Origin: Myxococcales bacterium | Lineage (GTDB): Bacteria > UBA10199 > 2-02-FULL-44-16 > JAAZCA01 | Reading direction: 5' to 3' | NCBI GenBank assembly: GCA_012513515.1 | Contig: JAAZCA010000037.1 | Location: 1 to 10,420, forward strand | Length of the DNA stretch: 10,420 nucleotides | In this document: positions 3,240-10,420 of the stretch, one piece after another | Numbering within the stretch: position 1 is the first letter of the stretch | Layout of the letters: every line of letters starts with the position of its first letter | Made by a program: the position numbers and the translations under genes | Notes under the pieces: generated by a model | Told to the model about the DNA's origin: nothing | Seen by the model: only the letters and a program-made list of their open reading frames with translations | Database searches by the model: none

Positions 3240-4073
3240 TTATAGCCATTTCAACTCTTCGGATCTTTCCTCCTCTTGCGAGGGAGGGCCGACGTAAAAC
3301 TCAATGGCGTCGATCAACTCTTTTATTTCTATAACCGTGTTCTGGCATGGGCCGTCAGGGCGCTTGTTTGGGATTCCTATGAGAGAAATTTTTCTACCCA
3401 CGTCTCGTATCCCGCTTACGAGGTCGCGTTCGCATGCGACGCCGATGACCGCTGTCGGTCTAGACTCCTTTATCTTCCTGCGAGCGAGTTCCCCTCCCGA
3501 AACGACGTGAATTTCAATGGGATATCTTTCCTTTAGAGAAGTGATCTCCTTGATCTGCTCCTTGGTGAGGCACCTAGGAAGGAGAATTAAAAGTTTTTCA
3601 TCCGATTCATGCCTTTTCGTAGCGCGAGACATCTCATTGTATGATTTCACAAATGAGTTTCCGAGCCTGTCTTTGGAGATCCCTAAAAATTTGGAAATTT
3701 TGAACGATCCTTCAAATACTATGTCGAACAGGTATTTCAGAGGGTTTGACAAGAATAGAAAGTTTTTTCCTGTTACGGCAGTCAGAATTATTTGGGTCAT
3801 CCATACGATTGTCATCAGGATGACGATTGTGACGATTGTCCATGCGACAAGCGGAAGGAAGCTGTGCCAGCTCGCAAGCCTTGGGGATATCATGTAGGTG
3901 AATCCGATGATCAAGAGGTCAAGCAGCAGAACCACAAAGCTTCCGATGGCGAGAAAGAGAGATTTCCCCTCGGAGGTATCCTCTCTTTTTTCTCCTTTCC
4001 AGCCTTCCCATTCTTCGCCGAGATTTCTAGTCTGAACTTTTCCCTCTTCTATTTTCTTTGCATCCATGACCAT
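3240..4073 (-). CDS. DUF116-family membrane protein lacking the usual extra cysteines
   Basis: This 277-aa protein has a charged N-terminus, two membrane segments (about 38-61 and 73-100) and a C-terminal DUF116 domain from about 158. DUF116 is recognised from LLILLPRCLT (161-170), VVSGGELARR (190-199), PTAVIGVACERDLVSGI (206-222), and GIPNKRPDGPCQNT (233-246). As I recall the family, Cys168 is normally followed by a C-x-x-C-rich insertion that looks like a metal or Fe-S site. Here LPRCL runs straight into the helix before the VVSGG strand, leaving only Cys168, Cys214 and Cys243. The function of DUF116 is unknown to me. It is transcribed toward the TRAP operon and diverges from nrdJ. A second in-frame Met at residue 3 is an equally plausible start. 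Confidence 0.82.
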   Translation of the reverse strand: MVMDAKKIEEGKVQTRNLGEEWEGWKGEKREDTSEGKSLFLAIGSFVVLLLDLLIIGFTYMISPRLASWHSFLPLVAWTIVTIVILMTIVWMTQIILTAVTGKNFLFLSNPLKYLFDIVFEGSFKISKFLGISKDRLGNSFVKSYNEMSRATKRHESDEKLLILLPRCLTKEQIKEITSLKERYPIEIHVVSGGELARRKIKESRPTAVIGVACERDLVSGIRDVGRKISLIGIPNKRPDGPCQNTVIEIKELIDAIEFYVGPPSQEEERSEELKWL

Positions 4074-8669: not shown

Positions 8670-8725
8670 CAAATCATCACAGGCGAGTTGTTGAGGTTGC
8701 CGGATCCCGTTCCAACAATAACTTC

Positions 8726-8803
8726 GACCATGGACAATTGACCATCGACCAAAACCAACGGTCGCAGTTGGTCAATGGTCTATAGTCCATTGTCAATCGT
8801 CAT
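8726..8803. repeat. Degenerate 7-base repeats arranged as an inverted repeat
   Basis: Four 7-base units on one side (GACCATG, GACAATT, GACCATC, GACCAAA; 8726-8753) face five units in the opposite orientation (TGGTCAA, TGGTCTA, TAGTCCA, TTGTCAA, TCGTCAT; 8769-8803). The tip contains a perfect ACCAAC/GTTGGT stem (8754-8759 with 8767-8772) around a 7-base loop. The array sits between the convergent ends of thyX and the PAP2 gene. Transcribed from either side it would form a long imperfect hairpin, but no T-rich tail marks it as a classic terminator. The flanking sequence 8670-8725 and 8804-8849 shows nothing else. Confidence 0.7.
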
Positions 8804-8849
8804 TCGGGGGTGATGACCTTTCAGCGCACGATCATTATCTTTGGAATTT

Positions 8850-9859: not shown

Positions 9860-9996
9860 TATGGGCACATCTAAAAACTATAAGATGAGCCGCCGCGACC
9901 GGAAAATTCACGTGTCTGGAGCGAGCCTTATCCGCGAAGATACGTGAATTTTCCGAGGCAGGCGGCTAACGCAGATAGTTTTTAGATGTGCCCATA
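9860..9996. mobile_element. 137-base palindromic element, MITE-like
   Basis: A perfect 22-base inverted repeat (9860-9881 with 9975-9996, beginning TATGGGCACATCTAAA) encloses two further perfect paired blocks: GCCGCC/GGCGGC (9889-9894 with 9961-9966) and CGGAAAATTCACGT with its complement (9900-9913 with 9942-9955). If the element proper is TGGGCAC...GTGCCCA (9862-9994), it is flanked by TA on both sides, as expected for a TA target duplication of IS630/Tc1-mariner type. It has no open frame and starts 6 bases after the nfu stop. It could be a non-autonomous element or, if transcribed with nfu, a long RNA hairpin ending that transcript. Confidence 0.6.
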
Positions 9997-10041
9997 AATC
10001 AATATCTGATTAGGCGTGTTTAAAAACAGGCTAACAATCTT

Positions 10042-10319
10042 ACATTCACTTCTGTTTTGGTAGGGTTCCCCTGAAGGAGACATTGGCGCGTCTACGAGAC
10101 CGATCGTATCCGGAAGTTAAAAATCAGATCGCTTTCTTGATTTGGAGGCCGACAGAGGAGGATATCCAAATCAGATGAAAGCGACTGATTTATGACGACG
10201 GATAGGGAGGCGAAGTGCGCCCAGTCGACGAAGGGGAAACCTGTCAAAATAGGAAGTAAATGTCAGATCCTATCACAACCGATTCTTATAATTTGAACTA
10301 GTCACGATTTAATCTGACA
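10042..10319 (+). ncRNA. Candidate structured RNA or leader, class unknown
   Basis: There is no convincing gene here, but nested complementarity is dense. The basal stem pairs 10042-10060 with 10244-10263 (18 pairs including GU, one mismatch, one bulge). Next come GGTTCCCCT (10064-10072) with 10232-10241, and TGGCGCG (10084-10090) with 10216-10223. Above them are TATCCG (10107-10112) with CGGATA (10199-10204), AAATCAG (10121-10127) with CTGATTT (10185-10191), CGCTTTC (10130-10136) with GAAAGCG (10177-10183), and TGATTTGGA (10138-10146) with TCCAAATCA (10165-10173). The tip is an 18-base loop containing GAGGAGG. A 3' helix pairs TGTCAGAT (10261-10268) with ATCTGACA (10312-10319). I do not recognise it as tRNA, tmRNA, RNase P, SRP or a known riboswitch. 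The strand is inferred from the downstream gene, and pairing alone cannot exclude a DNA element. Confidence 0.5.
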
Positions 10320-10322
10320 GAG

Positions 10323-10345
10323 GGTGGTTGAAAAAAGAAACCGCC
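10323..10345 (+). promoter_or_regulatory. A-rich-loop hairpin before the terminal gene
   Basis: GGTGGTT (10323-10329) pairs with AACCGCC (10339-10345), seven pairs with one GU, around the loop GAAAAAAGA. It sits between the large structured region and the hairpin that masks the ribosome site. Confidence 0.45.
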
Positions 10346-10402
10346 ATGGCACCTTCCCGGGGAGTCTCTAAACACCCCAAAAGGGGAAGGAGGAAACCAT
10401 GA
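10346..10402 (+). CDS. Possible 18-codon upstream ORF overlapping the next start
   Basis: The ATG at 10346 opens a short frame encoding MAPSRGVSKHPKRGRRKP, very basic at its end. Its TGA stop overlaps the downstream ATG as ATGA (10399-10402). Ribosomes translating it would melt the hairpin that masks the next ribosome site, and the overlap would allow re-initiation. Against it, no good Shine-Dalgarno sequence lies within 10 bases upstream, and the start itself is next to a hairpin. It may be chance. Confidence 0.25.
   Translation: MAPSRGVSKHPKRGRRKP
10352..10390 (+). promoter_or_regulatory. Hairpin masking the Shine-Dalgarno sequence of the terminal gene
   Basis: CCTTCCC (10352-10358) pairs with GGGAAGG (10384-10390), which includes the first part of the AAGGAGG ribosome site (10387-10393). 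Directly inside, GGGG (10359-10362) pairs with CCCC (10375-10378). That CCCC can instead pair with the downstream GGGG (10383-10386) across AAAA, giving a competing fold. This resembles a translational on/off platform. Confidence 0.5.
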
Positions 10403-10420
10403 CGGTCGGAGAAAAGCTTA
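10399..10420 (+). CDS. Start of an unidentified gene, cut by the window edge
   Basis: Only seven codons are visible (MTVGEKL), then the window ends. The start is supported by a strong AAGGAGG 5 bases upstream (10387-10393). The product cannot be identified; it would be the gene controlled by any leader in 10020-10398. Confidence 0.55.

Follow-up and report, generated by a model that had tools for sequence, protein, structure and literature searches.

The described systems closest to the element reported here are the REP, BIME and REPIN sequences, mobilised by RAYT (Y1) enzymes, which are short non-coding imperfect palindromes with many intergenic copies, often in inverted pairs. IS200/IS605 elements carry two terminal hairpins, in fixed order on one strand, that act as single-stranded DNA; an HUH transposase works on these hairpins, and insertion is next to a fixed short target. 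OLE, GOLLD, ROOL and other large structured RNAs are long, elaborately paired and covarying, and have a restricted taxonomic range. Miniature inverted-repeat elements (MITEs), for instance the enterobacterial RU-1/RU-2 and the Correia-like sequences, are small, non-coding and dispersed, with inverted terminal arms (PMC2229807).

Here we describe a long self-pairing element, hereafter the rod, which is scattered in the genomes of one group of uncultured bacteria and uncatalogued until now; no described equivalent turned up in the papers searched. Its habit is that of REP sequences, since rods are dispersed intergenic palindromes that partly occur as inverted pairs, but they measure 200-300 bp, as against 20-60 bp for REP, BIME and REPIN, and, unlike these, they show class-wide covariation and purine internal loops. 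Nor does a Y1 gene recur beside rods, whereas REP repeats lie beside the RAYT gene that mobilises them; the RAYT genes of the genome of the window sit among CCGTCAGACGGAG repeats. Rods share with MITEs all the features listed above, although neither a parent transposon nor a target duplication nor fixed ends were found for them, and they possess conserved internal loops and strand asymmetry. Like IS200/IS605 ends, rod units may consist of two hairpins in fixed order on one strand and may act as single-stranded DNA; however, no gene lies between these hairpins, which are several times longer. Finally, the rod resembles OLE, GOLLD and ROOL in the four respects given, yet it is unbranched, has many copies per genome and matches nothing in Rfam. 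It is best read as REP/BIME-like in habit but several times longer.

Fold and extent of the rod

The window is the whole stretch of DNA analysed, 10,420 nucleotides of a Myxococcales bacterium (contig JAAZCA010000037.1, number 37 in an assembly of 1.79 Mb). For 10000-10420, the + strand reaches a folding energy of -158 kcal/mol, versus -110.0 +/- 5.5 in 100 dinucleotide shuffles of the same segment (z -8.8, 0/100 as good), which bears out the claim of an earlier note, made from the letters alone, that pairing here is far above chance. The - strand, too, gives a strong fold (z -6.6), as expected because the sequence is a palindrome. In the minimum free energy (MFE) fold, the rod starts where 10037-10040 pair with 10265-10268 and leads, by way of about 19 helices of 1-12 pairs each, to a terminal loop of 3 nt (10154-10156); the earlier description, seven helices over about 220 bases, was right in outline. 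The features of the region are as follows.

9860-9996: palindrome adjoining the rod, itself a dispersed repeat in this genome (9857-9999 has matches at C19:175990-176092, C9:56089-56141, C31, C19 and C29)
9995-10036, + strand: left outer arm, or inverted terminal sequence, AAATCAATATCTGAT..., common to copies C19a and C19b (copy comparison)
10037-10268, + strand: the rod, a single unbranched imperfect palindrome (MFE fold, shuffles, homologous copies)
10037-10064 with 10240-10268, + strand: foot of the rod (MFE fold)
10085-10221, + strand: conserved core with 137 positions and 44 pairs in models R1/R2; 42 of the pairs covary (covariance models)
10106-10116, + strand: second conserved internal loop, 5' side, GUAUCCG-GA-AG (alignment read by eye, sequence)
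10149-10161, + strand: tip, CC-GA-C(AGA)G-GA-GG (fold and covariation)
10194-10206, + strand: second conserved internal loop, 3' side, GAC-GA-CGGAUAG (alignment read by eye, sequence)
10262-10269 with 10312-10319, + strand: 8-pair helix TGTCAGAT/ATCTGACA, in the window copy only, competing with the rod foot
10340-10406, + strand: separate hairpin around the ribosome-binding site and start codon, outside the repeat (fold)

In the tip, a 3-nt loop closed by C-G stands above tandem G.A pairs, followed by two covarying pairs. The 8-pair helix, previously taken as a separate structure downstream of the rod, does exist as sequence, but pairing it would undo part of the rod foot and other copies lack it, so that it has no support. 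The small hairpin noted beyond it is also present and belongs to the gene start, not to the repeat: it pairs CATGG/CCTTCCC with GGGAAGG/CCATG and is predicted to sequester a Shine-Dalgarno-like GGAAGGAGG together with the start codon (ATG, 10399) of the downstream gene (MTVGEKL...), which is cut by the contig end.

The rod in the window matched no Rfam 15 family at the gathering threshold, in agreement with the earlier failure to recognise an RNA class, and a passing comparison with 6S RNA found no support. Likewise, 17 other loci yielded just four hits in Rfam 15, three on rods; all four were to miRNA precursors and scored far short of the threshold. Elsewhere in the window, 8725-8805 contains an inverted repeat, GACCATGGACAATTGACCATCGACC...GGTCAATGGTCTATAGTCCATTGTC, a 42-base piece of which also occurs in L033.

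Copies in the same genome

Sequence search revealed seven rods in the genome, the other six being 86-91% identical to that of the window, besides further fragments. The flanks of these copies are mostly unrelated to one another. Some copies (C19a, C19b and, in part, that of the window) have an outer inverted repeat ending in GTACAAATCAAGATC. In others a left hairpin stands apart from the rod (AATAACGGAAAAGAGGC...GCCTCTTCTTTTCCGTTATT), which makes a repeated unit of 468 bp at C9a and C9b.

There are also repeats in which twin divergent genes for four-helix-bundle proteins (PF05635, 23S rRNA intervening-sequence protein) flank a near-perfect palindrome of about 74 bp, an arrangement also suggested in G001, G003, G004 and G042. 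The PF05635 twin-gene repeats are located at:

L019:1112-2060
L029:1436-2350
L026:1023-1863
L018:1-470
L031:1-390

Two of these repeats are nested inside rods of the genome of the window. As partners of the rod, the PF05635 genes were considered and dismissed as incidental: the rod-rich genome G012 has one, and G018 and G013 have none.

Distribution within the class

An initial DNA search gave weak matches in relatives, whose folds corresponded to the same rod built with other stems. A covariance model made from ten copies detected rods in 14 of the 46 genomes of the class, and a broader model in 16 of the 46, at 1-60 copies each (for example, 60 in G012, 27 in G017, 17 in G018, 14 in G031 and seven in the genome of the window). 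The broader model, run under stricter filters, retrieved none from 53 genomes outside the class. A degenerate exact pattern of the tip, which is narrow, was also sought in 84,980 named species genomes and, among the 80 matches listed, true rods appeared only in the relative G001; the same pattern found no true rod in viral contigs.

Covariation and conserved loops

Covariation among homologues was the test that the earlier note had itself put forward, and it came out positive. In an alignment of 98 copies, 93.6% of 4246 paired cells hold standard pairs, both partners have changed in 42 of the 44 pairs, and all four Watson-Crick types are present at many pair positions. None of 500 shuffles reached the observed values; tests of this kind are inflated by relatedness, and the alignment had been fitted to the model. 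Sliding the partners lowered pairing to 37-46% (about 46% for a shift of one column) and, given this result and how many types of pair occur, chance is untenable as the source of the covariation despite those caveats.

The C-G pair closing the tip loop is invariant (98/98 copies), whereas the two pairs below it, from which it is separated by the tandem G.A, vary among CC/GG, CU/AG, UU/AA, AC/GU and AU/AU. Purine loops like those of the tip recur further down the rod, as read by eye. The outer arms of the G012 copies differ in sequence and retain complementarity. In all, the fold has been kept by evolution though most of the rod sequence has changed.

The strand that folds

Among isolated mismatches flanked by pairs, G.T outnumbers A.C by 123 to 40, or by 89 to 37 if each distinct local context counts a single time, and G.A/A.G outnumber T.C/C.T by 97 to 24. 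In the outer arms, aligned with G.T and A.C scored alike, the counts are 94 versus 51. Since G.T exceeds A.C, the + strand is the folding strand, and these data show that what selection sees is the + strand folded on itself. The bias fits RNA and single-stranded DNA alike, and separates neither from the other. That selection maintains the fold of one strand is shown by the compensatory changes over 14 genomes, the kept loops and the strand bias of the mismatches.

Genomic neighbourhood and paired units

Rods are intergenic, and just two of the 82 copies lying in longer stretches overlap a large ORF. According to heuristic ORF calls, both neighbours are antisense to the rod in 36 of these copies and sense in 15, with 19 convergent and 9 divergent arrangements. 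No protein recurs beside rods, and GC skew gave no signal of replication-strand bias (26 vs 34). At least one copy (L063) lies between trpG and trpD homologues. A leader would be expected to precede a consistent, sense-oriented gene; instead, neighbours vary and occur in all orientations and, as no protein is recurrent among them, the rod is not a leader. The earlier note had named dispersal in numerous copies, with no constant gene downstream, as the sign of a DNA repeat, and this is the picture obtained.

True neighbouring pairs of rods (including L043 and L177), found in G012, G013, G017 and G021, are all head-to-head and about 90-140 bp apart; three other pair combinations are accounted for by weak matches, on the reverse strand, to the L253 rods themselves. 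In addition, a second structured element (model R3) consists of GUGUC, a stem enclosing an invariant GGGUUACGGCCC, GCAC, and then another hairpin. This element is itself dispersed, in 11 of the 46 class genomes. Eight places in four genomes have it on the 5' side of a rod, some 107-174 bp away, with both on one strand. Its loci include:

L013:2029-2112 and 3374-3457
L063:684-767
L012:1258-1341
L257:9765-9848
L262:16892-16975 (-)

Judging by its position, the palindrome at 9860-9996 of the window would occupy the place of the second hairpin found beside other rods.

Search for a mobilising enzyme

No transposase was linked to rods. Y1/RAYT genes are present in 37 of 45 class genomes, whether or not these contain rods, and the RAYT-type Y1 genes of the genome of the window (L034, L035) lie amid copies of a different short repeat, of the CCGTCAGACGGAG type. 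RAYT was thus rejected as a linked partner, because the repeat associated with it in this genome is another and no Y1 gene recurs beside rods; as mobiliser it is possible, though unlinked and nearly ubiquitous. As a separate observation, L010:1455-1529, from G037, matches 26 of 29 bases of the right flank of the window rod (about 10290-10318) and is situated some 210-240 bp beyond a gene for a Y1 transposase.

Reverse transcriptase (RVT_1) had no match in the genome of the window (G000) or in G012, G013, G017 and G018, all of them rod-bearing. The lack of a recognisable match in the last four, which are rich in rods, argues against retrotransposition. By inspection for MITE features, inverted outer arms are present, and neither a target-site duplication nor a parent transposase was identified. 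No empty site was established.

Nature of the element

We lean, with slightly better than even confidence, towards the rod belonging to a mobile element, non-autonomous and non-coding, that is special to its bacterial class and acts as a folded single strand. Its mobility is suggested by the dispersal of the copies and by the nested ones. Among the options listed in the earlier note, a mobile element or palindromic repeat fares best, although a plain repeat does not account for the compensatory changes, the conserved loops and the strand-specific mismatches. We propose that a protein whose gene lies elsewhere in the genome would recognise the folded + strand, either single-stranded DNA exposed at replication or a transcript, by its tandem G.A loops and its 3-nt tip. 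A unit of one or two hairpins would then be copied in trans to new intergenic sites, as are REP/BIME sequences and IS200/IS605-type ends, and continued spread would be conditional on the stems staying paired. Pairing as a condition for spread could explain why the outer stems drift in sequence and yet stay complementary. More tentatively, and with the odds rather against it, the two-hairpin non-coding unit might represent a new class of bacterial mobile element, so far from one class of uncultured bacteria, which would spread in the form of a single folded strand, with recognition in trans via the tandem G.A and the 3-nt tip, and in which the first-position hairpin would be interchangeable (a rod or the GGGUUACGGCCC element).

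A minority chance goes to a multicopy trans-acting structured RNA, or to an element for transcript processing or stability, whose + strand would be transcribed and bound by protein while the spread of copies would be a by-product. The strong covariation and the tolerance of G.U-type mismatches and purine-purine internal loops on one strand only agree with this, and the copy between the trpG and trpD homologues makes it probable that some copies are transcribed. However, where both neighbouring genes point the same way, read-through would more often meet the rod in antisense (36 vs 15), inspection of the flanks by eye brought up no conserved promoter or terminator, and 30 of the 46 class genomes have no rod. 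A MITE-like DNA palindrome, with arms kept identical by hairpin-templated repair and no selection on the fold, would explain that both strands fold and that the outer arms are near-perfect inverted repeats varying together. We find it improbable, given that the unpaired purine loops and the C-G-closed tip are kept over 14 genomes while the stems change, that such repair would erase loop mismatches as well, and that the mismatches are as strand-asymmetric as counted above. Least credible, to the point of being nearly discounted, is a riboswitch-like cis-regulatory leader of the downstream gene, another proposal of the earlier note: the window rod does precede an ATG that has a ribosome-binding site, but the element ends before the start-codon hairpin and its many dispersed copies adjoin unrelated genes in all orientations, which refutes it.

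The usual view of dispersed palindromes in bacteria is that they are short sequence repeats. In the present case, an element of 200-300 bp, reaching dozens of copies per genome, has its fold kept by compensatory change across a class of uncultured bacteria. If confirmed, the rod would offer a tractable case of a mobile element in which the fold of one strand must itself be conserved, and it would define a target in the search for the enzyme, namely a protein that reads the tandem G.A loops of the rod.
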